Source: Methylobacter sp. (GTDB lineage Bacteria; Pseudomonadota; Gammaproteobacteria; Methylococcales; Methylomonadaceae). Taken from it: a stretch of 60,634 nt of DNA. The position numbers were made by a program, and so were the translations under genes. The stretch is taken from contig NZ_SCTW01000069.1 in assembly GCF_004322395.1 (NCBI RefSeq), positions 1-60,634 of the forward strand. Direction: 5' to 3'. Below the pieces are notes generated by a model. That model was not told the DNA's origin and ran no database searches. It saw nothing but the letters and a program-made list of their open reading frames with translations. This document shows, piece by piece, positions 24,078-41,736 of the stretch (its first letter is position 1; each line of letters starts with the position of its first letter).

Positions 24078-24506
24078 TCACCAACAGTCAGTCACGGGAA
24101 GAGCGGTTGAAATACCTCTAGCTCCGGTTTGCGTTAATGATAGCGTGCCGCATTTATCATTGGACTGAGCGCCGGTTGGCGCCGCATTCAAGGTGTAGCT
24201 GCTGGCAGTCACAGCATTAATAGTCAAATTATAATACGGTGTGCCCCCATCTACCGGACTGGTGACCGAGAAAATAGTTGGACTTCCGGTATTACCGTCA
24301 GTCGTACCAGCTCCTAAATAACTGTTCGTTTCTGTGAAATGGCGCTCCATTGCATTAGCGAACCCCAGTAACGCCCCTTTCGCATCCGCTCGACGCGATT
24401 TCATGACGCTATCCTGATAGCTGGGATAAGCGATACTTGCAAAAATACCCACGATTGCCACGGTAACCATCAGTTCAATTAAAGTAAAAGCTTGTTGTTT
24501 GTTCAT
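24078..24506 (-). CDS. pilE: Type IV minor pilin PilE-like
   Basis: A 142-residue prepilin. The class III leader is only six residues (MNKQQA) before FTLIELMVTVAIVGIFASIAYPSY, with the usual Glu at +5. The residue just before the cleavage site is Ala rather than the near-invariant Gly. A C-terminal Cys pair (DKC and TDC) should form the D-region disulfide. It is the last gene of the minor-pilin operon, directly after pilY1, as in Pseudomonas. PilE primes pilus assembly with FimU, PilV, PilW and PilX. Confidence 0.88.
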   Translation of the reverse strand: MNKQQAFTLIELMVTVAIVGIFASIAYPSYQDSVMKSRRADAKGALLGFANAMERHFTETNSYLGAGTTDGNTGSPTIFSVTSPVDGGTPYYNLTINAVTASSYTLNAAPTGAQSNDKCGTLSLTQTGARGISTALPVTDCW

Positions 24507-24560
24507 GTTATTTAATAAATGAGTGAAAAATTAATATTGAGCACGAACGCTCTGTATTGC

Positions 24561-27500
24561 TTAACGTAATTGTCGCCAAGATTGGCGACTTCCACCGCCG
24601 GATGTCGACTCCGTCGTGCTCTCCAATGATCCCGAGGATCCACTGGTATATTTGTATTCAACAGTTCCCGCGCTTACTACACCAGGAGTCTTAATAATAC
24701 CTACCGTTGATTTTTTACCGGATACCGATATGTTATCGTCACTACTGTTGACACTATTATCGCCGTTAGTATCAACAAGTTTAACCATATCTTCGATATT
24801 GATAATGCCATTACCTGTTAAATCGAAAGGCGTTTCATTAAGACGGTTACCTGTAAGCGCGTCCAACTCCATTAGCCAACTGCTGCCTCCAAAAGAGCAT
24901 TTGCCGTTATCGGGCGTCATGGTGGCAAAAATAATTCGCCCGTTTCTTAATAGTGCCTGCACAACTACGCGCTCGCCGGCAGCGGTACTGGGCGGTGTTA
25001 GTAAATCCATGTACCAGCCTTTTTTGTCAGGATCGCCATGGACATTAGCGTCATTTTTGGATGTCACCCGTACACTAAAATTACCCTTGGTGCCTTCAAC
25101 CAGAATGGATTGTTGTACCAGTTCTGAACGTACGGCATTGGGGGAGCTACTGCCGCATGTGTCGCTGGTGCCGGCGCGTTTTACGCAAAGGTCTTTAATG
25201 CCGTAAAAGCTTTGTGTTTGCGGTGATGCAGGTACGGTATTGTCACCGGTTTCAAAATATTTACCGGTTCCTACATAAACCAATACCCCGTATGTGCCTA
25301 ATGAAGGTGGATGTAGACCTGCCTGCGGTTTGGCTGTAATAGGCTGGACAACTCCAGAGCTGTCTTTAGCTATAAATAGCGGCTTGGGGGTACTGCCGGT
25401 TTTGAATGCCACCTCCCACTGGCTTGCGGTGCTGCTACTGACATCGAATTTCCAGAGATTCCCTTTAAAATCGCCTGCGTAAATGGCATCAACGATACGA
25501 TCGCCGTTAACGTCAACACAAATAGGCGTTGATAGACCATTCGGACTGCTGGCATCGCCGGTTTCCGTTGAGATTGATTTGATAAGCGCGCCGGTTTTTA
25601 TATCGACAATATACAGTACGGCTTTTTGATTGACGCTGTTGTAACCATTACCGAATACCGCGGCAAAATTACCGTTCGCCATGCGCACGATCGAGGCTTG
25701 GCCTAGCATATAGCCTAAATGATTGGTAAAGCCATAGCGTTTATTACTGCCTGATAGATCATCTGTCAGATCAGTTGCCACGGGGGCGGAACTGGCGTTG
25801 ATTTCCCATAACACTCTATTTGCAGTAAAGCTTGTTTCAGCGCTCGCATAGTTGGCCGGGTTCAGAAAAGTGACATCCAAAGCGAAGATGCCCTTGCCGC
25901 CGGCGCCCAAGGTTTCAACCAGTGCGGTCCGCCACTCTTTCTGACCGTTGCCATCGGCATCGAAATAAGCATCGCCGGCAATAGGAGCACCGTCGACAAA
26001 ATATTTATGCTGACCGCTGCTTAAGTAGGTCGGGGAAGTGAATGCCGATAAATTGGCTAATACAGTGTGGGGCACATAAGCGAAAAGCTCGTTTCCGTTG
26101 CCGGTACCCGTGATATTGGCGTTAAAAACGTGCAGCATGCCATCGTTTCCGCCAATTGCCACCATCGGTGTTCTGGCCTTAAACGCAGCACTGTTACGAA
26201 AAGTTAAGTAATTACTGCCTTCGGCGCCAGGCAGTTTATCAAAGCCAAAATTGCGGTTACTGTTGATAAACCACGGGTCGGAATTAACCAAATCACCCAA
26301 TAATGCGTTTGTACCCGTACGTTTGCGTAGCGAACCGAAGGGTTGTTCGTTAGTTTGGTCGCCACGCAGATAGTCGACTTGGTTTTCGGTAAGCAATGCC
26401 TGCTGAGTCGCATTCAAATTACTCCATAGAAATGAAATGCCCTTTGGTGTCGCTGTCGGGTTATAACTAAAAATCGAACGGTCATTCATGCCTTGTGCGG
26501 TTACCCGTTGCCCGGCATCCCAGGTTGGATTGCTGGCGATGCTGCCATTGGCATTGATCGAATAGGCGAGTAATTGGCCTGTCCAATCGCCACTGTTGAA
26601 TTTAGCTTGGTAAACAACGCTGTTGGTGTCCAGGCGGGTTGAATTGGTGGTTACCGACGCTGATGACCCGGATTTGACCAGTACATCGTTAAGAATGGTA
26701 TCCAGCGCATTTTCCAGAAGCGCGGGATTGGAAGCCCTGAAAAATGCATCGGGTATGCCATTGTTATCTTTATCCCAGGATTGGTTGGCAGGATTATCCG
26801 CCAAACTGGAATCGACAGTATCGAAACCGCCGTATTTGGCTGTGTACCACAGCGGGTTTTCCAGTAACTTGGTGCTGGGTGTGCCTTGGGTATAGCTGGT
26901 GGTCGTGGGACTTGTGACGCCGGATGGTAAAGCAGCGCCTAAATTGAAGTTGCTGCCTCCGGGACGCAAAATCGGCAGCACGACGCCATCGCTAGTGGTG
27001 CCGGTTATGGTGTAACCAAAGCGCAATGCATGCCCTGCAGCGGCTTGCAGTACGGAAGCTTCGACTTTGATGGTCGTATTCCCCGCACTGGGAGTGGCAT
27101 TATTTGTGGCGCCCGGCGTGCAACTTGAACCTACACAGAATTTAAGTCCGGCGATGCCGTCCATGTCGTAATCATTACCCCAGGTTGAATCTTCCCAGTT
27201 GACTTTTAAACTGCCGGAAACCAATTTGCCGTCGGCATAGGTGAGGCTTTCCACCGTTAAATCGGTCATGCTGCAAATACGCCAGTTGCTGGTGGCGGCA
27301 GTTGCACTGGCCGTAGAATTGGCTTCGCAAGCAGGCAGCAAAGTGACGGTGCCGTTGCCGACGGGGATTTCAAACTTCGGTAAGCTTTCTGCAAGAGCTA
27401 CGCTGTAGGTATTAACATTTTGTTTTCCGTCCCTATCGGAGCGCAAGTCGTGGGTGCGGGCGTAATAAGCCAAACCGGCGATATTATAGGTGCCTTCCAA

Positions 27501-29048
27501 ACTGGGTACTTCAGGGCAAATGCCCGCCACCGACGATAAATTACTGACCGACTTGGAGCTGCACTGTTTATTGTTCGTAGTGCCATTGCTGCCGACCAAA
27601 TAGTCGCCGCTAATGTTTTCTGCGGTGCCAACGGCGTCGGTTTCGGTTGCGGCATTGATGCCCAAATCGTTGCTGAGCTCATTGCCATCAAAAGAGTTAA
27701 GCCCCGTTGAAATCGCTATGACTGAATTGGTTGCGCACCATTCGGCGGCAGGCATCGGATCGACCCAGCTGACCTGGGGCAGTGAGGGAATGAAAGTGGA
27801 ATCGCTGGTGTCAAAAGCCGTCGTCGGATTAGCCTTACCGGCCAGATAACGCAACGATTCCAAATAAGTTTCGCTTAAAGGGTTGCCCCATTCCACGCAT
27901 TGCCCATTATTAAAACTGAGCAAACCGGGGCTGTTGCAGGAACTTTGGTAAACATGATTGGTGAAATCATAACTGCTGATTCTAAACCGGTTCAAGGCAT
28001 TGATAATGCCGGCATCGGTAGTTGCCTGATTAAGAAATTGACCATTGGTTTTATCGATCTCGTTGGCGCTGCCGGTACTGTTGTCAAACATCTGGTTCAC
28101 GTTGCGGCGTAACACACCGCCCGATTTGTTTTTATTCCAACTGCCGGTCATCAAGCCGAAATACACCGGTTTGCTGGCTTCGGCGTATTTTTGCAGCAAA
28201 CCGGTGGGTTTCTTATTGCTGCCGTAAGTTTTGCAATTGGTTTCTTCCAGGCCCGATACGCAAACCTTGACCCGTACATTGAGTCCGGTGTCCGCATTTG
28301 CGCTTACCAAGTTGGCACTATTGGCCGGCCGTGTTCCTGAGCCCCACTGGCACTGGGTTACTTCGGAAGCTGCCCAGCTTGGAAAACTGCCGCTCGCTAT
28401 CCGCAGCAGAGGGGGGTAGGTGGTGGTGCCGGCATCCTTGGCAAGGCCGGAGCCCTGAGTGAGGTTACACAAACTGATGGACGTTTGGGCATAAGGGACG
28501 TATTTTTGCATATCCGTTGTTGATGCCGCGGTAAATACCTTGGCGAAGGAATGCACATCGTAAGGTATCAAACTGCGTTCCAGTACCGTATCGGTAGTAT
28601 CCGTGGATCGAAAACCGCCGTATAGCACTTTGCGGATAACGTCCATTCGCGTCATCGTGGCCCAGTTCAGGAAGTTGCCGCTCCATTGACTGCTACAGTG
28701 ATGGCTGTTGGCGCCTATTGCGGCACTTGCCGGCTCAAAGCGGCTATTGGTGTAGGTGTAGCATTTTTGATTATCGAAATAGCCGTAGTAATCAAAAGTA
28801 TCGATATAACTGGTGTCCAGTGTACCGTTGTTATCCAGATCGGAATAATCGGTATAAGCTTTGATGTAAAGCTGGTGATCGCGGGACATGGTGAGCATGA
28901 CTCGTGGCGATGCCGCCTGCGAAATGGTCAATGGCGACTGGGCAATGTTTAAATCCACAGCAAAAGCTGTTGGCAGCATGCTCGAACAGGCGGCAAAGAC
29001 AACCTGAAAAACGATATACAGGCATCTTTTAGTGTTGTTCGTTTTCAT
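24561..29048 (-). CDS. pilY1: PilY1-like pilus tip adhesin / assembly factor
   Basis: A 1495-residue secreted protein, larger than Pseudomonas PilY1. Signal peptide about 1-30 (ending TAFA). The N-terminal half is Ser/Thr/Asn-rich and Cys-containing; the C-terminal half (about 880-1400) is the PilY1 beta-propeller with KTPMVAIGGNDGMLHVFNA-like blades and the calcium site DVNGDRIVD followed by AGDFKGNLWKFD. Near the C-terminus, a dockerin-like pair (LTGNGIINIEDM and DTNGDNSVNSSDD) may bind further calcium. PilY1 sits at the pilus tip, promotes extension and mediates attachment and surface sensing. Calcium-dependent retraction control is known for the family. Confidence 0.92.
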   Translation of the reverse strand: MKTNNTKRCLYIVFQVVFAACSSMLPTAFAVDLNIAQSPLTISQAASPRVMLTMSRDHQLYIKAYTDYSDLDNNGTLDTSYIDTFDYYGYFDNQKCYTYTNSRFEPASAAIGANSHHCSSQWSGNFLNWATMTRMDVIRKVLYGGFRSTDTTDTVLERSLIPYDVHSFAKVFTAASTTDMQKYVPYAQTSISLCNLTQGSGLAKDAGTTTYPPLLRIASGSFPSWAASEVTQCQWGSGTRPANSANLVSANADTGLNVRVKVCVSGLEETNCKTYGSNKKPTGLLQKYAEASKPVYFGLMTGSWNKNKSGGVLRRNVNQMFDNSTGSANEIDKTNGQFLNQATTDAGIINALNRFRISSYDFTNHVYQSSCNSPGLLSFNNGQCVEWGNPLSETYLESLRYLAGKANPTTAFDTSDSTFIPSLPQVSWVDPMPAAEWCATNSVIAISTGLNSFDGNELSNDLGINAATETDAVGTAENISGDYLVGSNGTTNNKQCSSKSVSNLSSVAGICPEVPSLEGTYNIAGLAYYARTHDLRSDRDGKQNVNTYSVALAESLPKFEIPVGNGTVTLLPACEANSTASATAATSNWRICSMTDLTVESLTYADGKLVSGSLKVNWEDSTWGNDYDMDGIAGLKFCVGSSCTPGATNNATPSAGNTTIKVEASVLQAAAGHALRFGYTITGTTSDGVVLPILRPGGSNFNLGAALPSGVTSPTTTSYTQGTPSTKLLENPLWYTAKYGGFDTVDSSLADNPANQSWDKDNNGIPDAFFRASNPALLENALDTILNDVLVKSGSSASVTTNSTRLDTNSVVYQAKFNSGDWTGQLLAYSINANGSIASNPTWDAGQRVTAQGMNDRSIFSYNPTATPKGISFLWSNLNATQQALLTENQVDYLRGDQTNEQPFGSLRKRTGTNALLGDLVNSDPWFINSNRNFGFDKLPGAEGSNYLTFRNSAAFKARTPMVAIGGNDGMLHVFNANITGTGNGNELFAYVPHTVLANLSAFTSPTYLSSGQHKYFVDGAPIAGDAYFDADGNGQKEWRTALVETLGAGGKGIFALDVTFLNPANYASAETSFTANRVLWEINASSAPVATDLTDDLSGSNKRYGFTNHLGYMLGQASIVRMANGNFAAVFGNGYNSVNQKAVLYIVDIKTGALIKSISTETGDASSPNGLSTPICVDVNGDRIVDAIYAGDFKGNLWKFDVSSSTASQWEVAFKTGSTPKPLFIAKDSSGVVQPITAKPQAGLHPPSLGTYGVLVYVGTGKYFETGDNTVPASPQTQSFYGIKDLCVKRAGTSDTCGSSSPNAVRSELVQQSILVEGTKGNFSVRVTSKNDANVHGDPDKKGWYMDLLTPPSTAAGERVVVQALLRNGRIIFATMTPDNGKCSFGGSSWLMELDALTGNRLNETPFDLTGNGIINIEDMVKLVDTNGDNSVNSSDDNISVSGKKSTVGIIKTPGVVSAGTVEYKYTSGSSGSLESTTESTSGGGSRQSWRQLR

Positions 29049-29096
29049 GAGAGCCGCTCCGATTGTGTGTGGCGATATTCGGGTTTGATAGAAGAA

Positions 29097-29600
29097 TTAG
29101 CGTTTATAAACCGATTGCAGTACGACAACGGCAGTACTGGTACCACCAACTGCTCGCGCAGTGATCCGATATAATTCATTTTCGTTGTAATTCCCGGCAT
29201 CCAGAGTGCTGCTGCCGATAGTGTTTAATTGTTGAATCACATAAAGAGGGGCACTGGCCGTATGGCTTAAAGAGGGCGCGCTGTAGGTTACCGTGTTGAA
29301 GCTTGACCAATCGTCGTTCTGTTGAGGCGGCGTGGCAACTTCATTGTATAAACCGTCGGTGCCTGTTGCTGTGAACGTGGGCAAAGTGGCTTGCTTCAAA
29401 AATGTTTCGCCGCCACGCAATGCCGCTTCTGCCGCTTGAAAAGCAATATTAGTGTCCCTGCTGTTTCCGGCCATTTTCTCTTCAAGGCCGGTTACTTGAC
29501 TGGCGGTGATGCCGATTAAGGTGAGCAACAGCAACATAATCATACTGACGGGCAGCACCACGCCGGATTGATGCTTAAATGGGGAATATTTGTTTACCAT
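29097..29600 (-). CDS. pilX: Type IV minor pilin PilX
   Basis: A 167-residue protein beginning MVNKYSPFKHQSG before VVLPVSMIMLLLLTLIGI, with no Glu at +5, as usual for PilX. The QAAEAALRGGE segment at about 60-70 is the PilX_N signature. An upstream in-frame ATG at 29639 overlaps pilW; 29600 is chosen because it lies just past the pilW stop and yields a proper leader peptide. PilX is a priming minor pilin that links to PilY1. Confidence 0.87.
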   Translation of the reverse strand: MVNKYSPFKHQSGVVLPVSMIMLLLLTLIGITASQVTGLEEKMAGNSRDTNIAFQAAEAALRGGETFLKQATLPTFTATGTDGLYNEVATPPQQNDDWSSFNTVTYSAPSLSHTASAPLYVIQQLNTIGSSTLDAGNYNENELYRITARAVGGTSTAVVVLQSVYKR

Positions 29601-29613
29601 TAATATCTTCCTT

Positions 29614-30657
29614 TTATGGCAACCGATTGCGTAACGCAATGGTTGAAGTAAAAACCCGCCTGATTCGTCGATCGGTCGGCGTGACCGTTGCGCCGTTGTA
29701 TGTATAGGCTACCGGCTGAGCGGCTAATCCGTCATTCATGCTTCTTACTAAAACACTGACGCGGATGCTGACCACTTGATTCATATTGAGTCCGGCTGTG
29801 CCCGCAGGCACATAATAATTGGCCGTGCCATCCGGCGTTGCATCAGTATCTGCACCATATAAAATCTGCATATTCTCAACGCCCTCAATCAATTCGATAG
29901 GATTAGTTGTGCTTACAGATTTGGAATTATCCAACCGCCATAATGCCGGTTCACCGCTGGCATTGTTACGGATAAAAAAGCTGTATGATCGATATGCCAA
30001 TAATTCTGCATCCGAACCGTAAGCCTTACTTAGTTTATTATCGGAATTTTGATTTTGGGCATGCGCGATAGTCTGGATTCCGCTGCCGGATGAGGCGTTC
30101 GTTGCTATGAAAATGTCCGTTGAGCTGCAATCGGAAATCATTAGCACATCATAAGCACTGATATTGCAGCTGTTAACTGCCGGTATTTGAATATTGGCGT
30201 TTACTGAAGCCAAATTACCGGTTAAGTAAGCGCAACTTGCGCCAAAATGATAAGTGATCGCATCGGTTCCGGCTACGCAATCATTGGAGGCACCGCATGC
30301 ACTGGCGCTCCAATTATTGGCAACATTATTGATACCGATAAGCGGCGTGCTAAGACCGCCGGCAAGCGTAACAGGAGCGGGGTTCGGATTGGGATTTTGA
30401 CGAGCGACTATAACGTTAGGAGTTATTGATCGGGTTGCACAACCCTGAAATCCCATCATGCGATTATCCCTTGTAATAAAATCCATTACAAACCGGCCAT
30501 TTTCCTGAAGCCTGGACAGGTTTTCCTGCATTCTATAGGTCTGTCTGGAGCCGAGAAAAATTTGCATGATGCCGCCTATTAAGAACGCACCCAATAACAT
30601 GGCTATCATGAGTTCTACCAGCGTAAAACCTGTTTGCGGGCTTTTAGGCCGTTTCAT
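29614..30657 (-). CDS. pilW: Type IV minor pilin PilW
   Basis: A 347-residue prepilin: leader ending QTG before FTLVELMIAMLLGAFLIGGI, with the PilW-family segment FLGSRQTYRMQENLSRLQENGRFVMDFI at about 28-55. The large C-terminal region has several Cys that can form disulfides. Its start overlaps the pilV stop (ATGA), so the two are translationally coupled. PilW is the large minor pilin of the priming complex. Confidence 0.9.
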   Translation of the reverse strand: MKRPKSPQTGFTLVELMIAMLLGAFLIGGIMQIFLGSRQTYRMQENLSRLQENGRFVMDFITRDNRMMGFQGCATRSITPNVIVARQNPNPNPAPVTLAGGLSTPLIGINNVANNWSASACGASNDCVAGTDAITYHFGASCAYLTGNLASVNANIQIPAVNSCNISAYDVLMISDCSSTDIFIATNASSGSGIQTIAHAQNQNSDNKLSKAYGSDAELLAYRSYSFFIRNNASGEPALWRLDNSKSVSTTNPIELIEGVENMQILYGADTDATPDGTANYYVPAGTAGLNMNQVVSIRVSVLVRSMNDGLAAQPVAYTYNGATVTPTDRRIRRVFTSTIALRNRLP

Positions 30658-31148
30658 AACTGAAAGCTCACTGAGAAATTCGGGTCGGAAGTGTTGACTG
30701 CCCCATCACGGTTATCATCCCAATTAACGGTAATAGTAAAAACCCGAGTTGCAGCGACAACCGTTATCGTTCCTGTACCGCTGGGCAGGGTGCTGGTTAA
30801 GGCGGCATTCCACTGGAATAGGTCATTTTGAGCCATTTGCGCACCGGTACAGCCGGTCGTGGTTTTGCAGCTTGCCTGATCTGCGGCAGCTGTCGGGGCC
30901 ATAGTTACAGTAAGGTATGTACCGGCTGTAATAACATTGCCGGTTGCCGGATTTATACTTTCATTTTTATTAGCCCGCATTCTGTCGGCCATGTCATAGG
31001 CCAACTGTGTAGCCTGGCTACGATTATAGGCGCTCAGGTTATTTTTGATGCTGGCAGCTTGAAGTCCTGCCAGCCCGAGTAAGCCGACAGCTAAAACAAG
31101 CGTCGCGATTAAAACTTCAATTAAGGTAAATCCGCTATTTTTATTCAT
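30654..31148 (-). CDS. pilV: Type IV minor pilin PilV
   Basis: A 164-residue prepilin with leader MNKNSG before FTLIEVLIATLVLAVGLLGLAGLQ, the GspI/PilV signature, followed by YNRSQATQLAYDMADRMRAN. The downstream globular part includes two Cys (SCKTTTGC). The end overlaps pilW. PilV is part of the minor-pilin priming complex. Confidence 0.9.
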   Translation of the reverse strand: MNKNSGFTLIEVLIATLVLAVGLLGLAGLQAASIKNNLSAYNRSQATQLAYDMADRMRANKNESINPATGNVITAGTYLTVTMAPTAAADQASCKTTTGCTGAQMAQNDLFQWNAALTSTLPSGTGTITVVAATRVFTITVNWDDNRDGAVNTSDPNFSVSFQL

Positions 31149-31182
31149 AAGGCATCAGAGGCCAAAAGAGTTTTTGGTTAGA

Positions 31183-31710
31183 TTAAGGACATGCTGTTGT
31201 TCCTTGATACGTTCTTGACCGACCTACAGCATTTATTTCAATTGCACGGGAATTCAGGGTGTCGGCTGAACTATCGCATAATCTGAATGTGTCGCCGATA
31301 GAGCTTAAGCTTAAGCCGCTGGGCAAATAAGCCGCAAAATCCTGATAGCCGGCAGTCCCGGTTCTTAAGGTAAAACCGTTCGTTAACGCCGGGTAGGTTT
31401 TTAATAAAGTATCTACAGTATCTAGTATGCCATCTCCGTCCAAATCGGTAAAAATATCCCAACCTGAATCCCAGTTTTGATTTGTACTTCCTTTCCTTCT
31501 GACGCTGACTTGCACACCTCGTTTAACGGCTTCACTACGCGCCAAATTTAACGAGGTAACCAGCTCATTGGCATAGGTCGTTAGCCGGGTGCTTCTTATG
31601 ACTGAGCTAAAGCTTGGTATGGCTATGCCTACAAGAATAGCGACAATGGATATCGTGACTATGAGCTCAATCAAAGTAAAACCAAGGCTTTTTGTTAACT
31701 TGTTACTCAT
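31183..31710 (-). CDS. fimT: Type IV minor pilin FimT/FimU (GspH-type)
   Basis: A 175-residue prepilin: leader ending SLG before FTLIELIVTISIVAILVGIAIPSF, then the GspH domain with TYANELVTSLNLARSEAVKRG and two C-terminal Cys. It is the first gene of the minus-strand minor-pilin operon. In Pseudomonas the equivalent FimU joins the priming complex; FimT relatives bind DNA during natural uptake. Which of the two functions applies here cannot be decided by eye. Confidence 0.85.
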   Translation of the reverse strand: MSNKLTKSLGFTLIELIVTISIVAILVGIAIPSFSSVIRSTRLTTYANELVTSLNLARSEAVKRGVQVSVRRKGSTNQNWDSGWDIFTDLDGDGILDTVDTLLKTYPALTNGFTLRTGTAGYQDFAAYLPSGLSLSSIGDTFRLCDSSADTLNSRAIEINAVGRSRTYQGTTACP

Positions 31711-32562
31711 CAGCGATCAATCTCCATGCATTATCGGTTTTGAATACACCTAATCAAAATACAAAACATAGTATCTTTTATATTCAATTCTTAAATATTA
31801 GGCTAGGGCAAGCACAGCTAATCACAAGCTGTTGGTATTACGACGGCATTACTGCCGGTATCAAACGTCGCATTATAGGTTTTGAATAGAATTAATGAAG
31901 TAACTATTCAGCACATCAAGAAAAAAAGGAATAATTCCTGATTAGTAAAGCGCAAAACAAACTTGGCTCTGAAGTATCCCCACAAAATATTTATATGCCA
32001 CCGAACGGCAGATCAAGGTCAATAGCGGCTCAAAACATTCGCCGTATTCGCTAATTTTTCTCGGCAAAATCGCCTGCCGCTATGTTGCGTTTGAACTATC
32101 GGATGATTATTTAAAACTGGCGCAGGCACTCTTAGTAGGCTATTTTGAAAAATTAGAGGAAAGATAATTCGTGGGAATACGTCAGAACCTGACCCCCTTT
32201 CTTTATGCATGCCGACGATTTCTGCCGGTTGCGGGCGCTCCTTGCTTCTCCCCTCATCCTTCCGTTTACCTTCTCCCCTGCCCGCTACCGCGACCGAGGC
32301 CTGCTTTCTGTTGGGCCCGGCCAACACACCACAACTATTTAGTTTTCAGATACTTGGCTTGAGCATCCCGTCATGGCGTTGGGGCTTCCCAACAATACCC
32401 GATCGGCCACGGTTCCACGATAAACTCGTATCCCTTTGTTGTTAATGGCGATTTTAATGTTGGCACGATCTTTTCACTTAGTTTGGGCATGGAGCGGAAA
32501 AACCTCTCCATGACACCTTAACAACATAATAACAATTCACCCCCAAACAGAGGAAAACGGTC
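31711..32562. other. Accessory junction upstream of the GRAS gene, mostly non-coding
   Basis: About 850 bp between the pilus operon and the small ORF. It must hold the fimT promoter. It also includes an open fragment at 31982-32166 (separate entry), a GTCAGAACCTGACCCCC motif near 32181 that is frequent near mobile repeats, and a stretch (32200-32450) that is more C-rich than its neighbours. Short frames here (for example 32019-32327 minus, 32171-32362 plus) have no coherent products. Confidence 0.4.
31982..32166 (+). pseudogene. Truncated reading-frame remnant
   Basis: An open frame with no start codon runs from after an in-frame stop to TAA at about 32166. Its product tail is protein-like (SPYSLIFLGKIACRYVAFEL, then a Leu/Ala-rich helix ending FEKLEER). 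I do not recognise the family. It looks like the 3' end of a gene whose 5' part was lost when the neighbouring island inserted, but it could be chance. Confidence 0.3.
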
Positions 32563-32685
32563 ATGAACATTCACACGCACCCCGGCATTTGCACATTCTC
32601 GGCCTGTTGGTCTAAGCGAGCATCGCAACGAGTTCCCACTTCGGAGACTCCGAAAAATACCATCCCAACATTTTCCGTCCTATGA
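32563..32685 (+). CDS. Small ORF (40 codons) ahead of the GRAS gene
   Basis: A 40-residue frame with a good ribosome site (AGAGGAAAA, spacer about 7) and a stop 16 bases before the GRAS start. The product begins MNIHTHPGICTFSACWSKR and is rich in Ser, Thr and Pro, with two Cys. I recognise no family. It could be a translated leader that couples to the GRAS gene, a small peptide substrate, or a chance frame. There is no membrane segment or signal peptide. Confidence 0.4.
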   Translation: MNIHTHPGICTFSACWSKRASQRVPTSETPKNTIPTFSVL

Positions 32686-32701
32686 GCACGAGGTCCCGAG
32701 T

Positions 32702-33832
32702 ATGAAAAACGTTCATGAAAAATTAACGCAAGGATTTAGCGAACAACAGGCTTTCGCCTTGCTTTCTGCAACTGCGGAACATCTTGAAAACGGCCGCTCC
32801 CCGGAAGCGGAAACATTATTGACGTCGCTGATCGAAACCCAGGGCGCGCATTCCGTCTCGGCAAACGTACAAAGCCTGATCTTCGCCAAGGCATTGTTGA
32901 AAAATATCAACGAAGAAAAGGCCGAAGAGGCCAACCTGTATCTCAAGGAGTTCGATATGCCACAGATCGAACTATTCGATCTTTTGGCAAAACACGTGCC
33001 GCTGGTGAATATCCCGGGGCAAATCGTCAATGAGATGATCTGCCAGTTTCTCCGGCAAAGTGAAGAATATGTGCTTCTCGACATTGGCATCGGTTCCGGC
33101 CGGCAGGAAATCAGGCTGCTCGAAAAACTGGCCGCACATTCCTGCCGGAAATTGACTTTGATCGGTATTGAGCCGGCGGTTGAGGCCCTCAGGGAGTCCG
33201 AAAAAGCCATCCGGCAGAAAGCCGATGAACTCGGCATCGAATTGATGTTTTATCCCATCGGCAAGAAGATCGAAGATTTCAACAGGGAGGACTGGAATTT
33301 TCTGGAAAACTTCAGGGGAAAACTGGTCATCAACGAGGCGTTCTCTCTGCACCATGTGGTCCGTCACCACTCCCGAGGCGATCTCAAGGACCGGGTGATC
33401 GAGCGATTATATGGACTGGATCCGGTGTTCTTCGTCCTGACCGAGCCCCATTCCGATCATGAAACCCCGAGCCTGAGCCGGAGATTGGCCGAGGCTTGGT
33501 CCCATTTCGGCGCGACCTTCAGGTTCATCGACCAGTTATCCGAGCTGGATGAGCATCAAAAGGCTGCGCTCAAAACCCGGTTCTTCGCCAGGGAGATTGA
33601 GGATATTCTTCAGATGGATGATTCCCTGCGGGTGGAACGCCATGAAAAAGCCGAGCAATGGATTTCGAGGCTTCAGAAAACCAAGTTTCGCACTCTGGAT
33701 TTGAAAGACTTCATGAGGAACGTCGGTCTTTCTGCCGGAAGCGCTCTGAAGCTCTCCGTCCGACAGGATTATCTGAGTCTCGATTTCGAAGATCAAACTA
33801 TTGTCTCGATCATCGGTGCTCAAGCGGCGTAG
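32702..33832 (+). CDS. Bacterial GRAS-domain protein (Rossmann methyltransferase-like)
   Basis: A 376-residue protein whose whole length follows the GRAS domain known from plant DELLA/SCARECROW regulators. An N-terminal helical repeat (13-70, LLSATAEHLENGRSPEAETLL) comes first; a VHIID-like strand and glycine loop, YVLLDIGIGSG, is at 123-133. RGKLVINEAFSLHHV (206-220) matches the Leu-rich block before PFYRE, PVFFVLTEPHSDHETPSLSRR the PFYRE region, and AREIEDIL with RVERHEKAEQW (297-320) is the strongest motif. A SAW-like end covers 340-376. Bacterial GRAS proteins have been predicted to be SAM-dependent methyltransferases of small molecules; the substrate is unknown. The gene is GC-richer in style than its neighbours and lies beside transposase debris, so transfer is likely. 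Confidence 0.85.
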   Translation: MKNVHEKLTQGFSEQQAFALLSATAEHLENGRSPEAETLLTSLIETQGAHSVSANVQSLIFAKALLKNINEEKAEEANLYLKEFDMPQIELFDLLAKHVPLVNIPGQIVNEMICQFLRQSEEYVLLDIGIGSGRQEIRLLEKLAAHSCRKLTLIGIEPAVEALRESEKAIRQKADELGIELMFYPIGKKIEDFNREDWNFLENFRGKLVINEAFSLHHVVRHHSRGDLKDRVIERLYGLDPVFFVLTEPHSDHETPSLSRRLAEAWSHFGATFRFIDQLSELDEHQKAALKTRFFAREIEDILQMDDSLRVERHEKAEQWISRLQKTKFRTLDLKDFMRNVGLSAGSALKLSVRQDYLSLDFEDQTIVSIIGAQAA

Positions 33833-34044
33833 GACAGGGGGTATCGACATGCGCGCCAAGTTATGAGATCAAGAAGCGCAGAATCCTAACTCCCTGCAAG
33901 CCTTATGGAGTTGAATCACGGGTTCTGGCAGGGTTTGCAAAGCACGCCGCCGGGGACGCTTCTTACTGACCTGCTGGCATAAAGGCCAGTTCGCTTCTTG
34001 CCGACGGTGAACTTCGAGGATCCAGGCATCCACTTGGTTCCTGA
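33833..34044. other. Unassigned segment between GRAS gene and transposase
   Basis: This segment lies where the helix-turn-helix part of the IS630 transposase would be expected, but the plus-strand frame is broken by stops. The minus strand is open across it (frame ending at 33869) and encodes a basic peptide with KKRPRRRALQ that I do not recognise. It may be scrambled transposon sequence. No terminal inverted repeats could be placed with confidence. Confidence 0.35.
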
Positions 34045-34863
34045 CCATTTTCAGGAGGCGCCAAGGCTCGGCTGGTCGAGTCGGCCCCCTTGGGTGCCGA
34101 AGAGCTTCTGGATAACGAAACGGAACGGGTAGAACTTGAAAACGAGCTGGAGCAGGCTCCCTATCGAGCTCGGTTGTTGCCAGCACGGTTTCATGAGCGA
34201 ACCGGAAAAACCGTGGCCTTTTCAACGATCAAGCGTTGGCTGAAAGAACGTCATTGGGTTTGGAAACGCTGCCGGCGAAGTCTTAAGACGAAACAAGATC
34301 CTGTTGCCTTCGAGGAAGGACAGCGTGCGCTGCAGGTCCTGAAAACCCAGGAGGTCGCTGGCGAGATTGATTTGTTTTTTCTGGACGAAAGCGGTTTCAG
34401 TGCCGGTACCTGTCTCCCTTACGCATGGAAACCCCAGGGAAAAACGCTTGCGCTACCGGCAAATAGTCCAGGCCGCGTGAACGCCATCGGATTGGTGAGC
34501 TTGCAAGGCGCCAGTTATTTTCATACGGTCGAAACCACGGTGACTTCGGCGAATATCACAGAGGCCATGGCCGGTTTTATATGTTTCCGAATCACCGAAA
34601 AATTGACGGTAGTGGTCATGGATAATGCACCTTTTCACCGAAAAGCCGAGCGAGAAAATCAAGCACTTTGGTTGCTAAGTGGCGTGTGGGTCTGGTTTTT
34701 GCCGCCTTATTCGCCAGAGTTAAATCTTATTGAAATTCTATGGAAGAAAATCAAATACGAATGGCTGCCCTGGGAAGCTTACGCCAGTTTTCAGACGCTT
34801 CGCTCCGCCTTGCTGGACGTCTTGCATAACTATGGCGAAAAATACCGGGTTAATTTTGTATGA
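34045..34863 (+). pseudogene. IS630-family transposase, N-terminally truncated
   Basis: The frame is open from just after a stop at 34042 and ends GEKYRVNFV, the normal IS630 C-terminus. The DDE catalytic core is intact: FFLDESGFS (first Asp), VVVMDNAPFHR (second Asp) and PPYSPELNLIEILWKKIKYEWLP (Glu). The second helix-turn-helix remnant (FSTIKRWLKERHW) is present, but the first DNA-binding domain of the usual roughly 340-residue protein is missing. No ATG or good ribosome site starts the frame; a TTG occurs at 34090. It is probably inactive. Confidence 0.8.
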
Positions 34864-35059
34864 GTGCTTACGTAGCTGTAAATTTCACTACATTGTTAAT
34901 TTTTGCCCCCTTATTCAACTTTATTTCCAACAAATTTGAAGATCAAAAAACCGCAACAAGCCGAAATGACCAGCCTTAAGTGAGAGAACAACAAACTTGA
35001 AAAGGAAATATACAAGATATTTCAGGTTTCACCCGCTACAACTGCCTACGCCACATCAT

Positions 35060-37672
35060 TCACTGAATTCGGTACTGTATAAATACGCCGAAAACATGAT
35101 TGGCATAATTTTCAGGAACGGCATTTAGAAAAAGATGATTGCCGATCAGAGGCGAGAGTCCATCATAGTGCCAGTCTTGTGTACCGCTGTGTTCATAACG
35201 ATGGTAGAACCGCATTGATACATCCTTGTGCAGATTCCACCTTAAGCCGGTTTCCAAAACTTGCCGGGTAAAAGTAATGGCCGGAAATGTATTATTAATT
35301 GCCTGGCTTCTGATTTCCGGATTGGCGAAAGCCAGATTGGATACTGCATCATAGCCAACATCAGTGTGCGCCCAATTGTATGAATAACGCATGTCGATGT
35401 CGAACGGGTCAAATTGGTAACGAAAGCCGAGCCCTACTAAGTGGTTGATGTCGTCAACGGATTCTTTCCAGGCCGCAACATAAGGAAAGCGTCTACCGCC
35501 GGCATTGGGGTCGGCCGAAAAGCCGACGTCGTTGATATTGCTCAATCGGCTTTGCTGCTTCTGAAAACTGTAGAAAGCATAGGCATTCAATCGCGGCGAA
35601 GGCTGATAGTTACCCTCCAAGTTGGCCGAGATGGTCCGGGCGCTTTGTAGTCCATAATGGGCGTTATAGTCATTGTTTATCCAGTTGACGGAAGCAAGTA
35701 AATCCATGTCGTCCCGCAGCAGAAAATTGGCCTGGGCTTTAATCTGGTTCTGGCGCCGGTCACTCAGGTCGTATTTTCTTAAATCGGCGAGCGTATACGG
35801 TGTTACACCATTGGGCAGCGCTGATTTGAATCCGATAAGCGAGTCGGTGTAGAAGGGCATATAGGGATTGTAATCATAATGGCTGCCGTCCCGAATCGCG
35901 TATTCGTAAGATAAGCGTAAAGTCGACCAGGATAATGAGCGATTGGATAAATGAATCTTCAGATGATTTTCATCGGTCCGGGCGCGTTCCCGGTAGGCAG
36001 GGTCATGTTGTTCAAAGTGATAGCTAAAACCCGCTGTAGTTTTGTAACTAAGCCGGTAATCACTATCGAAAAACCACTCCATAACCTTTTGCGCAAAAGG
36101 AGTGCTGCGATACCGAAATGAGTTTTGCGGCGATGCCGGCCTGAAAACCTCGCCGCCTTCCGAACCGTCTTCGAGGACATAGCCGAATTGATTGGTCAAT
36201 GGATTAAACGCTGTATAGTTAGTATCGTTATCTTCGTCGTAATGGCGAAATTTTGCTTTTAGCGTTAAAGGATCCCATGGCGTCAATTGCAGGCCTATTT
36301 GAAACAGCTTGTTGGTGATCTTCGCATTGGCCGTCTTTTGCGATAGCGATGCTGTGGAATTCCACTGGTCCATATTAATGCCGGTAAAAGTCGAACCCGA
36401 ATTGATGGTCGAAGGGAGCAGATCATCATCCTGATGCATTTGCGACCACGATAAGGTTGAGGTCAATTGCCCCTGTAGCGGCAATCTATAGGCGAGGTCG
36501 GTTTTGACTTGGTGGAAAGTGTTATCGGGATACAAATCAAAGCGGCCGCGTTCGACGATAAAGTTAGTGTCGGGAAGATTGGTAAAAGGGTTATCAAACG
36601 TTAATTGACCTTTATTATTCGCAAAAAACGAGCCGGTATAGTTCAGATTGAGTTCTAAACCGGTATTCGCGTAGCTAAAACCGGAACTTATTTCGTTGGT
36701 TGTATAATCGATGGGCTCGATGGTTTCGACCATACCGCCCGAGTTTTCGGTGCTATAGAACGGGGGCAGAAACGATCCGCCAAAAGCCCGCTTGCCCTGA
36801 CGCGTTTGATGGGAATAATTGGCGGAAAATTTAGTACTCAGTGTCGGCGTATAATCAACGCCGATATTGCCTTCCTCCCTGTTTATGCCAAGACCGGGAT
36901 TATAAGCCGATGCCAAGGCTTGCCGGATCTGCTCCCGGCTATTGTTACCGGGTATCAGTCCGAGTGGTAATGTCAGGTTTTCGCTGCCGACGCCTTGAAA
37001 CAAAGTCACGGCATTGTCGGTATAAGTATGCGGTGTTTGGTTGAAAAAGCCGTTAATCTTGAAACTACCGAGCTGTCCTGTCGATAATTGATAATATTGA
37101 TCGTTACGTCCGACGCCGCCGCCTTGAGCCTCCAGAAAATATCCTTTGCGTTCCTGCCAACCCGATAATGCGAAGTAATTGAGCAAGGGCCCATTGCTCC
37201 AATCGCTGTAATCACTGAATTTCGAAGTCGTTTTATTACCGCTGCCGAATAAATAGCCAAAATCCAGGCTGCCCCGGTATCGCCAGTCTTCATTCAGTTT
37301 TTTATAGCTTAAAGGTTCATAAGGGGTATCGTACAGTAACCCGCTCGGCGTTCTGGAAGGGTGTTCTTTGATAGCGGAAAGCCCCGCCTGTGATTTTGTC
37401 CGTGTGATATCTGTTCTGGTGGGATTGAGATTGTTCCCGGCTGGGCTGCCTGCGCCTATGGCTGACGATGCAAACATAAGCGATGTACTAACGATTATTC
37501 CGCTAACACGCCTAAAAATAATGTAGCGGCTACCGCCGTATCGGTATCGGCCGGTAAAGATCGGCAGCCGCGTCGCTGCCAACCTATCGGTGAAACAGTA
37601 CGCCCGACGAATGATTGGATCCATGAATCTGGGCATGGCAGTTTTGACAGCTTCGGTTAATGAGGCGCGCAT
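35060..37672 (-). CDS. MtrB/PioB-family outer-membrane porin of a decaheme conduit
   Basis: Up to 870 residues. After a basic region and a hydrophobic signal (about 55-74, ending AIGA), the protein is a large transmembrane beta-barrel: repeated alternating aromatic strands (for example WRYRGSLDFGYLFGSG, FSANYSHQTRQGKRAFGG) and a final strand HVFGVFIQYRI. MtrB-like barrels sheathe a decaheme cytochrome and carry electrons through the outer membrane. The gene follows the decaheme cytochrome gene on the same strand and overlaps its end if the first ATG is used (a later start, such as 37624, is plausible). No N-terminal CxxC, found in Shewanella MtrB, is seen. Confidence 0.85.
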   Translation of the reverse strand: MRASLTEAVKTAMPRFMDPIIRRAYCFTDRLAATRLPIFTGRYRYGGSRYIIFRRVSGIIVSTSLMFASSAIGAGSPAGNNLNPTRTDITRTKSQAGLSAIKEHPSRTPSGLLYDTPYEPLSYKKLNEDWRYRGSLDFGYLFGSGNKTTSKFSDYSDWSNGPLLNYFALSGWQERKGYFLEAQGGGVGRNDQYYQLSTGQLGSFKINGFFNQTPHTYTDNAVTLFQGVGSENLTLPLGLIPGNNSREQIRQALASAYNPGLGINREEGNIGVDYTPTLSTKFSANYSHQTRQGKRAFGGSFLPPFYSTENSGGMVETIEPIDYTTNEISSGFSYANTGLELNLNYTGSFFANNKGQLTFDNPFTNLPDTNFIVERGRFDLYPDNTFHQVKTDLAYRLPLQGQLTSTLSWSQMHQDDDLLPSTINSGSTFTGINMDQWNSTASLSQKTANAKITNKLFQIGLQLTPWDPLTLKAKFRHYDEDNDTNYTAFNPLTNQFGYVLEDGSEGGEVFRPASPQNSFRYRSTPFAQKVMEWFFDSDYRLSYKTTAGFSYHFEQHDPAYRERARTDENHLKIHLSNRSLSWSTLRLSYEYAIRDGSHYDYNPYMPFYTDSLIGFKSALPNGVTPYTLADLRKYDLSDRRQNQIKAQANFLLRDDMDLLASVNWINNDYNAHYGLQSARTISANLEGNYQPSPRLNAYAFYSFQKQQSRLSNINDVGFSADPNAGGRRFPYVAAWKESVDDINHLVGLGFRYQFDPFDIDMRYSYNWAHTDVGYDAVSNLAFANPEIRSQAINNTFPAITFTRQVLETGLRWNLHKDVSMRFYHRYEHSGTQDWHYDGLSPLIGNHLFLNAVPENYANHVFGVFIQYRIQ

Positions 37673-38528
37673 CCGGATTGGATCCGGCCGCCAGATTCGC
37701 GGTCGTCAACAAATCGTTGGGATGTCCCCGATTGGTATGGCAAGACTGGCATAAAAACGGTCTGGCACTGACCAGTAATGACTCGTGATTAGAGCCATGC
37801 GGCTGATGGCAATTAAGACAGCTTTCCCGAACCGGCGCATGCTCCCAAATAAAAGGGCCGCGCTTTTCCTGATGGCATTGATAACAAAGCTGATTGACCG
37901 TATCGGCTTTAATCAATGCCGATGTGCTGGAACCGTGGGGATTATGGCAATCGGTGCAGGTTACTTTTCCTTCGGGTAAAGGCATATGTGAGCGTTTCCT
38001 GAACTCGGCACGTTGTTGCTGATGGCAGCTATAGCAGGTCTGGTTTATGCCGTCTTTGCGCAGCAAACCTTTATCAGAAAACTGAGCCATTGGATTATGA
38101 CAATCGCTGCAACTCAGATCGTTCATTTGATGAGCGGATCCTGACCAAGCGATACGCTCTTTGCCTCGATGACATTGCAGACACATGGAATTCTGTTGGT
38201 TGATCGTAGAACCTGACAGGCGAGTGAATACCATGATTTTCGATTTATCGGCGGGATCCGACACATGTTCCGATCCGGGACCATGACAGGTTTCACAGCC
38301 CTGGATCTGTGGATTTTCCGGCGCGGCAAGATTAGGAATGCGCGCATGGATCGTATGAGACCAGTGGTTAGTTTCAAGTTCATGACAGCTGGAACAAACA
38401 CTTTCTCCAACATAATGGGCTTGGATTTGAGCTTTGTTCAGTTCCGGCTTTAACGATAACGGTGATAATGGCGAACAACTCATTATCGCCACTATGCCTG
38501 CGATTAAACTTAGATAAACTAGACTCAT
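37584..38528 (-). CDS. Decaheme c-type cytochrome, DmsE/MtrA family
   Basis: A 314-residue protein with exactly ten CxxCH haem-binding motifs (CSSCH, CETCH, CLQCH, CSDCH, CYSCH, CTDCH, CYQCH, CLNCH, CQSCH, CQNCH). The spacing and size match MtrA/DmsE periplasmic decahemes. The N-terminal signal (1-18) ends AIMSC, an imperfect lipobox, so it may be a lipoprotein rather than soluble. It is followed immediately by the MtrB-like barrel gene, the established electron-conduit pairing. Direction of electron flow (metal or DMSO reduction, or iron oxidation) is not decided by sequence. Ccm maturation is needed but not encoded here. Confidence 0.93.
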   Translation of the reverse strand: MSLVYLSLIAGIVAIMSCSPLSPLSLKPELNKAQIQAHYVGESVCSSCHELETNHWSHTIHARIPNLAAPENPQIQGCETCHGPGSEHVSDPADKSKIMVFTRLSGSTINQQNSMCLQCHRGKERIAWSGSAHQMNDLSCSDCHNPMAQFSDKGLLRKDGINQTCYSCHQQQRAEFRKRSHMPLPEGKVTCTDCHNPHGSSTSALIKADTVNQLCYQCHQEKRGPFIWEHAPVRESCLNCHQPHGSNHESLLVSARPFLCQSCHTNRGHPNDLLTTANLAAGSNPDARLINRSCQNCHAQIHGSNHSSGVLFHR

Positions 38529-38586
38529 ACGCGTGATGAGGAATCCGTCATTAATTACCGCCTTCTCATAATATAAAAATGATCCA

Positions 38587-38633
38587 ATCCACTAAACCAG
38601 CAATGCTCAAACCTCATTGCTGGTTTAGTGGAT
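38587..38633 (-). terminator. Intrinsic terminator between monoheme and decaheme genes
   Basis: A perfect 19-bp stem (ATCCACTAAACCAGCAATG and its complement) with a 9-base loop lies 10 bases after the minus-strand monoheme gene; on the minus strand a T run follows a few bases later. It should separate the monoheme transcript from mtrAB or attenuate read-through. Confidence 0.75.
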
Positions 38634-38643
38634 ATTATTGTAC

Positions 38644-39318
38644 TTAGGGTATAACGGTAGAACTTATTAAGGTAAACATCACCGGATTAGAGTCTGTTAC
38701 CAATGTCATTTCGGCACTTACCCGACCTTGGCTGATGCCATTTTGTACCAGCTCGACAGAAGGAATAGTCAATCCCCCTGTTTCAGGGAAAAAAGTCGCG
38801 GCATTGTCTGAGGACGCGGTAGTCGGCGCGGCCCTTTCTAATACGAAGCCAATACCGGTTGGACTAGTGTCGAGAGGGATTTGTCTAAGAGTTGCTTGGA
38901 ATTTATAATTGCCGATATTAACGACAGGGAGTGTCAGAAGAGAGTTATCGGACAAGGTGGCAACAGACAAGGTGGCTCTGGGGAACCCGGCATTTTGCCA
39001 CGCGAGCATGGCGGTTCTTTGCTCTTCATCGAGCAGCGGGATACCACTAGAAGCGGGCGGCATCGTCATCAGGTTCACGGCTCTTTCGATAGCACGAGTA
39101 GCATTCGGTAGCGTTGCCTCATAAGTATCCCAATTGACAGACGACGGTGCGCCGTTACGAGCCGAACCGACCAGATTGGATGAATGACAGAACAGGCAAT
39201 TGGTTGCGAATACTTTCTCCCGAATGCCGTTTGCACCTTCATAGACCGGATCAATAGCGAAAGCATGGCCTGTGATAAAAAAAAGAAATAGTATGGTGAA
39301 CGTGCTTTTTATATTCAT
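38644..39318 (-). CDS. Monoheme c-type cytochrome with C-terminal beta domain
   Basis: A 224-residue secreted protein: signal peptide about 1-21 (ending HAFA), one haem motif CLFCH near residue 40, and a likely axial Met in MTMPPASSG with the class I helix LLDEEQRTAMLAWQNAGFP. The second half (about 115-224) is beta-rich with no Cys. ATG 39318 is chosen for its strong GGAGG site 7 bases ahead and its signal peptide; an upstream frame start at 39399 lacks both. It lies upstream of the decaheme-porin pair in the same direction, so it may be a periplasmic donor or acceptor, but a terminator separates them. Confidence 0.8.
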   Translation of the reverse strand: MNIKSTFTILFLFFITGHAFAIDPVYEGANGIREKVFATNCLFCHSSNLVGSARNGAPSSVNWDTYEATLPNATRAIERAVNLMTMPPASSGIPLLDEEQRTAMLAWQNAGFPRATLSVATLSDNSLLTLPVVNIGNYKFQATLRQIPLDTSPTGIGFVLERAAPTTASSDNAATFFPETGGLTIPSVELVQNGISQGRVSAEMTLVTDSNPVMFTLISSTVIP

Positions 39319-40017
39319 AAGGGTACCTCCTCTATGTATGCTTGAATTAATAGAGCCACTAACATTCACTTTCCTATAACACAAGCCTATGCAGGCCATT
39401 GAAACTTAAAACAATTCCTTTTAGAAATTGAATTAATAGAGGTTCCTTTAATAGAGTATTGACATAAAATTGGACATATTGCCCAGACAAATTGCCAGCG
39501 AGTTTAAGGACGTTTCGAAAAATACTGTTTGCCGTTCTCTCGCAACAACCTGGATACACGCTTTCGAAGATAGGACGAATTTTTAGAAATTCCCTTAAGA
39601 TGGTCTCGTCTTCGTTACAGCGAGTTCGATGTTCCACTGCTTCAGAAGAATCCTGTTATCACCAAAATGATCAACGATCTATGCACGTCACGGTCTTCTA
39701 TCCGATAGGCTTTATTCGGTGTTTTATAACTCATAAAGCACAGAAAAAATTACCTGTAAAATTATTTTGTTCCCAAAAAGCAGTATTGTTCAATACGTAT
39801 GATTACACACCTTCTAAGTCCTATTTAACCGTCCTAAAGCCGGTACCGATACTGGGATAAAGAAAATGGGGACGGAATCCAATGCCCTCTTTCCTCCACA
39901 TCAAAGGGCTTGCCATAAATTGGCTAGCACTAAGCTCCAGAATTGGACTCTGAAAGCTAGAGCTTCGCCTTTGAAAACTAGGTGTATTCATGATGATTTG
40001 ATGTGGCCTGCCTAACA
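39319..40017. other. Intergenic region between cytochrome and FAH genes
   Basis: About 700 bp. It holds the GGAGG ribosome site and presumably the promoter of the monoheme gene. I could not support a gene: frames at 39374-39637 (minus), 39492-39860 (plus) and 39821-40021 (minus) have no coherent products. A small palindrome AATTTTTAGAAATT occurs near 39580-39593. Confidence 0.4.
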
Positions 40018-40884
40018 TCAACTTAAGCCATCCGGTTCCTCAATAACCGGATTAACCAGCGTTCCGATGCCTTCAATTTCAATACGCGCGGTCTGTCCCG
40101 GCAACATATAGCCGCGTGGTTTCATTTTTACACCAACCCCGCCGGGTGTGCCGGTGCTGATTACATCGCCGGGTTCCAGCGTCATCGCTTGCGTTAAATA
40201 GGCGATCATCTCGTAACAGTTAAAAATCATATACTTGGTATTGGAATTTTGCCGCAACTCATCATCAATCCAGGTTTTAAGAGTCAGGTTATGCGGATCG
40301 GGGATTTCATCAGAGGTAACGATCCACGGGCCAAGGGGACCATGGGTATCGAATGATTTGCCCACTGTGAACGTCGGCGAACGAAATTGCCAATCGCGCA
40401 CCGAAACATCATTGGCAATAGTAAATCCGGCAATGACTTGATGAGCCTTTTCGACAGGCACATGGCGGCAACGCGTGCCGATAACAAAAGCCAGCTCCCC
40501 TTCATAATCCAACTTATCGGACACTTTCGGCCGATGTATCGCATCGCCTGGCCCTATCACACAGGTGCTTTGTTTGGTAAAAAAACTGGGATACTCCGGT
40601 TTATCCAGACCGATTTCTTCGATATGGTCGGCATAGTTCAGGCTGATAGCTAAATATTTTCCCGGCCTGGGTACCGGCGCATGCAGTTTGATCCGATCCA
40701 GTGCGATGCGGTCATTGCCGCTGTCGATTTGCTGGCGCATCGCATCCAGCGCGCTGGAACCTGCGCTCAGAAATTCGAGCATCGTTGCAGGGATTTTAGT
40801 ATTATTTTTGCTGTCGACGACAAAGTCACCAACGACAGCGCCTACACGGGTTTCGTTATTATGAGTAAAAGTTACCAGTTTCAT
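40018..40884 (-). CDS. Fumarylacetoacetate hydrolase-family protein
   Basis: A 288-residue enzyme of the FAH/acylpyruvase superfamily. Seen: KYLAISLNYADHIEE, PSFFTKQSTCVIGPGDAIHRP, the metal-binding E-x-E pair in DYEGELAFVIG, NDVSVRDWQ, GKSFDTHGPLGPW and GDVISTGTPGGVG. These enzymes hydrolyse or decarboxylate beta-keto acids using Mg2+ or Mn2+. The exact substrate (acylpyruvate, oxaloacetate, aromatic-degradation intermediates) cannot be fixed from sequence, and no degradation operon is adjacent. It diverges from rpe. Confidence 0.9.
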   Translation of the reverse strand: MKLVTFTHNNETRVGAVVGDFVVDSKNNTKIPATMLEFLSAGSSALDAMRQQIDSGNDRIALDRIKLHAPVPRPGKYLAISLNYADHIEEIGLDKPEYPSFFTKQSTCVIGPGDAIHRPKVSDKLDYEGELAFVIGTRCRHVPVEKAHQVIAGFTIANDVSVRDWQFRSPTFTVGKSFDTHGPLGPWIVTSDEIPDPHNLTLKTWIDDELRQNSNTKYMIFNCYEMIAYLTQAMTLEPGDVISTGTPGGVGVKMKPRGYMLPGQTARIEIEGIGTLVNPVIEEPDGLS

Positions 40885-40989
40885 GAGTTAAGCTTATCCG
40901 TACGATTTGAAGTGCCGATATTGTAAACATAAGAGTTTGTGCAAAAAAAAGATATAATCAGTAATTTTTCAATTTAAGAGGATCAGAAA

Positions 40990-41661
40990 ATGAACGAAAA
41001 CTGGATTGCTCCGTCCATCCTGTCAGCCAACTTCGCCAAACTGGGTGAAGAAGTCGATAACGTTTTAAAAGCGGGCGCCGATGTTGTGCATTTTGATGTG
41101 ATGGACAATCATTTCGTGCCCAACCTGACCATCGGGCCTTTGGTTTGCGAAGCGTTAAAAAAACACGGCGTTACCGCGCCGATCGATGTGCATTTGATGA
41201 TTGAGCCAGTTGACCGTATTATTCCCGACTTCGCTAAAGCCGGAGCCGATATTATTACTTTCCATCCCGAAGCCTCTGTGCATATAGACCGTACCCTGCA
41301 ACTGATTAAGGATTCAGGTTGCAAAGCTGGCCTAGTGTTTAACCCAGGCACACCGCTGCATTATTTGGATTACGTGATGGACAAACTGGACATGATTTTG
41401 TTGATGTCGGTTAACCCTGGCTTTGGCGGCCAGTCTTTCATCCCTTCATCGCTGGGTAAATTGCGTGAAGTCAGAAAAAGAATCGACGACAGCGGCTTGA
41501 ATATCCGTCTGGAAATCGACGGCGGCGTTAAAACCGACAATATCCGCGCGATTAAAGAAGCTGGCGCCGATACCTTTGTCGCAGGTTCGGCGATTTTCGG
41601 CCAGCCGGATTACAAGAAAGTGATCGATGACATGCGTGCTGAGTTGGCTAAAGCAGTTTAA
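40990..41661 (+). CDS. rpe: Ribulose-phosphate 3-epimerase
   Basis: A 223-residue TIM-barrel enzyme interconverting ribulose-5-P and xylulose-5-P. Metal ligands are seen at H34, D36 ([13 protein letters not shown]), H68 (DVHLMIEP) and D177 (LEIDGGVK); [12 protein letters not shown] is the phosphate-binding loop. A clear ribosome site (AGAGGA) lies ahead of ATG 40990. The position before trpE is conserved in gammaproteobacteria, although the usual gph between them is absent. The enzyme also serves the ribulose monophosphate and pentose phosphate cycles. Confidence 0.96.
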
Positions 41662-41674
41662 AAATTGGTTGCAG

Positions 41675-41701
41675 GTTGGGTTAACGCTAGCGTAACCCAA
41701 C
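41675..41701. repeat. Palindromic repeat between rpe and trpE
   Basis: GTTGGGTTA and TAACCCAAC flank ACGCTAGCG, a near-perfect palindrome of the GGTTGGGTTA...TAACCCAAC type that is widespread as a dispersed intergenic repeat in bacteria. It lies 14 bases after rpe and could act as the rpe 3' hairpin. Confidence 0.65.
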
Positions 41702-41736
41702 AGTCCAGTTTGCATATACCTAATTGAATAACCAAA

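Follow-up and report, generated by a model that had tools for sequence, protein, structure and literature searches.

The window, by which we mean the whole stretch of 60,634 nucleotides analysed here, carries an intact gene of the GRAS family (32702..33832, + strand), a family best known from regulators of plant growth, and its product of 376 amino acids is a predicted class I SAM-dependent methyltransferase. Judging from the sequence comparisons described below, this intact bacterial GRAS protein is probably an enzyme of this class with a small metabolite as its methyl acceptor, and the host likely acquired the gene alone, by horizontal transfer. The window forms contig 39 in a genome of 4.6 Mb; because two pmoA-type genes are found in that genome, the host was regarded as a methane oxidiser. 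The link between bacterial GRAS proteins and Rossmann methyltransferases is already known (Zhang, Iyer and Aravind 2012, in the passages quoted in PMC4279901 and PMC5834537); the present protein is like theirs in its bacterial GRAS domain and in the Rossmann methyltransferase relationship, and differs in that its gene stands alone, in a methane-oxidising host. The methanotroph gene is a further bacterial GRAS, and the part for which no precedent was found in print, within the literature searched, is the link between GRAS and PncC in the myxobacterial loci. The same literature gave no substrate for any bacterial GRAS protein. Searches for GRAS together with CinA, Myxococcus or nicotinamide gave nothing relevant (most subscription papers were outside the search), and no methanotroph work with the term 'GRAS domain' was among the matches listed.

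The GRAS domain and the predicted SAM pocket

The reading frame is open over 376 codons from an ATG start, with a likely ribosome-binding site (GAGG, 32690..32693, +) 8 bases before it; the frame tested on the opposite strand has stops. The GC contents at the three codon positions are 0.58, 0.33 and 0.63, and the coding signal is intact. The protein matches Pfam GRAS (PF03514) with 116.2 bits (curated cut-off, 27; E 2.1e-33), and solved plant GRAS structures are matched by sequence, both with the single protein (SCL3, 3.1e-12; SCR, 2.6e-8) and with a profile built from 20 bacterial members (SCL3, 4.6e-34; DELLA1, 1e-30). The assignment of a GRAS domain to a bacterial protein, made in the sequence-only reading, is therefore upheld. 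The same reading had followed the domain from its helical start to a SAW-like end, and that end was not upheld: the Pfam match, significant and not full-length, covers residues 20-338 on profile positions 4-333 of 374, so that the C-terminal SAW motif is unmatched. A shortened match is usual, not universal, in bacteria, because the profile match stops no later than position 339 for 50 of the 53 myxobacterial-phylum places and runs to 350, 368 and 369 in the other three. The block common to plant GRAS (FFAREIEDIL ... RVERHE, residues 294-315, 33581..33646, +) lies inside the SCL3 match at residues 230-334, the best single-sequence stretch, in agreement with its earlier choice as the best block. 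From homology to the solved GRAS structures, we infer a Rossmann core with a helical N-terminal cap.

Residue conservation was examined in 57 distinct bacterial GRAS sequences (the window protein, two from Skermanella, four from other methanotrophs, and 50 from the 53 myxobacterial-phylum places; the remaining three places, which had no fetched locus, were omitted, and doubly fetched genes were counted once). Class I methyltransferases bind SAM with a glycine loop and an acid that holds the ribose, and both elements are present in the window protein. The loop YVLLDIGIGSG is at residues 123-133 (33068..33100, +), where it had been placed from the letters alone, and contains the D/E-x-G-x-G-x-G motif as DIGIGSG (residues 127-133). 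D127, G129 and G131 are kept in all 57 sequences and G133 in 55. The acid after the second strand, E157 (33170..33172, +), is expected to hold the SAM ribose; the 57 sequences have either D (34) or E (23) at this position. NEAFSLHH (residues 211-218, 33332..33355, +) is the expected active-site strand and loop: H217, together with E248, is found in 57/57 sequences, and H218 in 55/57. In the proposed mechanism, the helical N-terminal part (about residues 1-105) would cap the Rossmann domain, SAM would bind at the D127-x-G-x-G-x-G133 loop, its ribose held by E157, and the methyl-acceptor side would be lined by H217/H218 and E248; the acceptor would most likely be a small metabolite.

The domain is shared, for most of its length, with plant SCL3, SCR and DELLA. 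When SCR, DELLA1 and SCL3 were compared residue by residue, all three kept D127, whereas the loop glycines were reduced to G133 in SCR, to G129 and G133 in DELLA1, and to none of the three in SCL3, and the acid at 157 was absent from all of them. Thus, the view that the SAM loop is mostly lost in plants was borne out for these three, none of which has the full GxGxG loop or the acid that the window protein has.

Kinship with known methyltransferases was evident in a divergent relative, L064 (genome G951, 8975-9847, -), a protein intermediate between GRAS and ordinary Methyltransf_25: the same protein matches GRAS (4.7e-13) and Methyltransf_25 (6.9e-9), a putative methyltransferase structure (3.5e-7), and the bacterial GRAS profile (E 8.7e-11). 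Through this bridge, GRAS is continuous in sequence with known methyltransferases, and L064 may mark the root of the family. Together with the conservation of the motif across the 57 bacterial sequences, this supports a SAM site of the methyltransferase type, as the sequence-only reading had supposed. At E <= 0.01, Methyltransf_12 matches 5 and Methyltransf_25 matches 3 of 20 bacterial GRAS members; neither matches the window protein at that threshold, its matches to generic methyltransferase models being weak (E 0.0045 to 0.07) and all under the cut-offs. Its best NCBIfam match (E 0.0045) is the alpha-keto acid C-methyltransferase model (2-ketoarginine type, TIGR04543), which was rejected at 16 bits (cut-off, 425); at E <= 0.01 the model also picks up 4 of 20 bacterial members, 0.00047 being the lowest value. 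PDB 8ftr, which we take from its length to be SgvM, matches the bacterial GRAS profile with E 5.7e-5. For SgvM, a zinc-enolate mechanism is described in passages of PMC10502145. A profile comparison with L080, a member of the alpha-keto acid family from another genome, gave 35% probability (E 0.0004) over part of the SAM domain, and L080 has Q where bacterial GRAS has H217; for these reasons a kinship of the SgvM zinc-enolate kind was dropped.

Distribution, horizontal gain and local neighbourhood

Note that the counts for relatives, order, class and phylum include the host genome itself. A search with the window protein found GRAS in 1 of 41 relatives and in none of the other 22 genomes belonging to the genus. 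The wider counts were 5 of 311 genomes for the order, and 1 of 369 and 1 of 398 for samples of the class and the phylum. In a sample of another class of the phylum, taken as Alphaproteobacteria, the count was 0/337, a sample zero that is not the same as absence. Two of 72,556 plasmid records had GRAS, both of them Skermanella plasmids. A scan of species contigs with short exact patterns matched one Pyxidicoccus only, and in its phylum GRAS was present in 47 of 195 genomes, at 53 places. No GRAS relative was seen in viral contigs with pattern scans of this kind, which can miss distant relatives, and no match in phage records with tblastn; viral carriage was accordingly set aside.

The GC3 of the GRAS gene is 0.629, above all 21 other window genes (mean 0.500, sd 0.050, max 0.615). 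On account of this value and of the patchy distribution in the order and the genus, the gene was likely gained horizontally, as a lone gene without partners. It had been proposed to have been acquired with mobile DNA, and of this proposal the horizontal gain holds, while carriage by an element does not find support. The remnant of a transposase, matching the DDE_3 catalytic domain almost completely (PF13358, E 7.2e-32), begins at TTG 257 bases downstream of the gene (34090..34863, +), with stops in all three frames just upstream, and another contig carries a further partial copy, 194 bases long at 93%. However, no element ends enclosing both GRAS and the remnant were found, and a composite transposon was rejected, the repeats around the two being short and imperfect (15-20 bases). 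One genome of the same genus with good synteny (G010) matches the window at 35062-39350; because the remaining fetched stretch of that genome matches nothing in window 23001-42000, no empty site was definable.

None of the neighbours of the window GRAS is a co-located pathway gene that names a substrate. A 40-codon ORF lies just upstream (32563-32685, +), and a RiPP-like peptide was considered and rejected, as this 40-aa ORF and the 46-aa ORF before a Skermanella GRAS are dissimilar by eye. A defence system was also rejected (weak PADLOC match, E 0.0028), and Rfam had no match in 31000-35200. Elsewhere in the window, an MtrB/PioB outer-membrane porin (PF11854, E 9e-125) stands beside a multihaem cytochrome with doubled CXXCH motifs (35060-38528, -), apparently a pair for extracellular electron transfer in this methane-oxidising host, and a Dynamin-family GTPase (PF00350, E 9e-14) is encoded at 17417-19345 (-), on the host chromosome.

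By identity, core myxobacterial GRAS proteins are the closest to the window gene (32-36%, 25 core rows). The two Skermanella plasmid proteins (WP_203101398.1 and WP_202684580.1) have the same domain with 28-29% identity over 348 columns and the SAM motif kept, but their genes have as neighbours a LysR regulator, a nucleobase transporter and an amidohydrolase, none of which was seen by eye near the window gene. Four other methanotroph GRAS proteins, also at 28-29% identity, form one clade with supports of 99/100 and 100/100 in two trees (44 and 42 of 58 rows; 14 close core rows were left out). In topology tests with 29 rows, p-AU was 0.237 for a clade of the window gene with these methanotrophs, 0.151 with core myxobacteria and 0.351 with Skermanella, so that none of the three was supported or rejected. 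Common descent within methanotrophs was not adopted.

GRAS and PncC in myxobacterial loci

Forty of the 53 places in the myxobacterial phylum were taken with flanks, and genes were called by a codon-composition script for GC-rich DNA, so that starts are approximate. The labels 'core' and 'accessory' were introduced in this analysis. Thirty-two of the 40 loci are of the core type (L038-L057 and L066-L077), and in 31 of these a PncC/CinA gene directly follows GRAS on the same strand, the exception being L052; 30 loci were assigned by gene calls and L049 by inspection of the sequence, the script having missed its GRAS gene. A 4-base overlap of the GRAS stop with the PncC start is seen in 21 of the 30 core loci that have gene calls (the script's count of 23 takes in two open frames that are not PncC). 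After PncC, a third gene on the same strand encoding 120-145 amino acids was present in 30/30 loci; a SpoIIAA-like match was obtained for one of two such proteins tested. The next most widespread neighbour family occurs in 20 loci. Since the 25 core GRAS proteins that were compared diverge down to 40% identity and the other neighbours differ between clades, the trio outlasts the surrounding synteny, although all core loci may belong to one bacterial lineage. The six accessory loci have one conserved gene after GRAS, with DUF885 in the one tested. With five tblastn queries, PncC was found neither in the 60-kb window, where the core form would have it coupled to GRAS, nor in the two Skermanella stretches, the four other methanotroph stretches, or L052, L058, L064 and L065; by gene calls, none was present in L059-L063.

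NMN deamidase converts NMN to NaMN (PMC3855486). For the Agrobacterium enzyme, passages of PMC5384747 describe S31 and K63 as required for catalysis, Y58, S48 and R145 as binding phosphate, and the activity of the S31A mutant as undetectable; an alternative mechanism, with a water activated by the lysine, has also been proposed. Among the 31 PncC proteins linked to GRAS, Ala replaces S31 in 29 and Ser is retained in two (L046 and L048), whereas Y58, K63, T105, G46 and S48 are invariant. R145 is found in 30, the remaining sequence having a gap there, and position C32 is variable (C in 25, S in 5, G in 1). As S31 is mostly Ala while the NMN pocket is kept, most of these partners resemble proteins that bind NMN and have lost the usual route of deamidation. 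The Ser in the two near relatives argues for caution in this reading.

Bacterial GRAS methyltransferases might then have a role in the pyridine-nucleotide (NAD) cycle, with core GRAS working alongside an NMN-binding, non-cutting PncC-like protein and either methylating NMN, nicotinate or a related pyridine, or being switched by NMN. We regard this as rather unlikely: no PncC lies near the window gene or near any of the non-core genes tested, and the Skermanella neighbours named above point toward it at best loosely. An origin in soil bacteria is ascribed to the plant GRAS regulators (PMC9942845), and if the NAD-cycle role were true, the ligand pocket of these hormone-pathway regulators would descend from a vitamin B3 enzyme. 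With the conserved methyltransferase pocket and a myxobacterial gene group pointing to NMN, the ancestral chemistry becomes testable with a short list of substrates.

Alternative explanations

A non-catalytic GRAS, binding SAM, SAH or another ligand and acting through contacts with other proteins in the manner of the plant regulators, would accord with the homology of the window protein to those regulators and with the ERHE block common to both; the coupling of core GRAS to a PncC-like protein with alanine for the catalytic serine in 29/31 would also suit it, as the pair could be a sensor. We consider it unlikely, because the D127, G129 and G131 of the SAM motif are kept in every bacterial sequence of the set, unlike in the three plant sequences. 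Methylation of a macromolecule (rRNA, tRNA or protein) is suggested by weak matches of residues 117-178 to the NpmA 16S rRNA methyltransferase (E 0.0065) and of residues 111-175 to PCMT (E 0.07). These matches are below the cut-offs (16 vs 60 bits and 13 vs 20 bits, respectively) and cover the SAM region only, Pfam finds no RNA-binding domain in the window protein, and GRAS is sparse in the order, all of which makes a macromolecular substrate improbable.

The gene could also be functionless cargo decaying beside a broken transposase, which would be compatible with the GRAS family assignment and with both the adjoining DDE_3 remnant and the lack of GRAS in the other genomes of the genus. Such decay appears very improbable, as the 376 codons are open, the residues near-universal in bacterial GRAS are kept, and the GC at the codon positions is normal; furthermore, a pair of methanotroph relatives (G1355 and G1356) looks to be under purifying selection, with pN/pS of 0.147, uncorrected for multiple hits. 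The predicted small-molecule methyltransferase is thus preferred. Among the methanotroph GRAS loci of another genus, one (L106) has genes for a beta-ketoacyl synthase and for a synthase III-like protein within about 7 kb, and another (L105) has a group II intron reverse transcriptase nearby.
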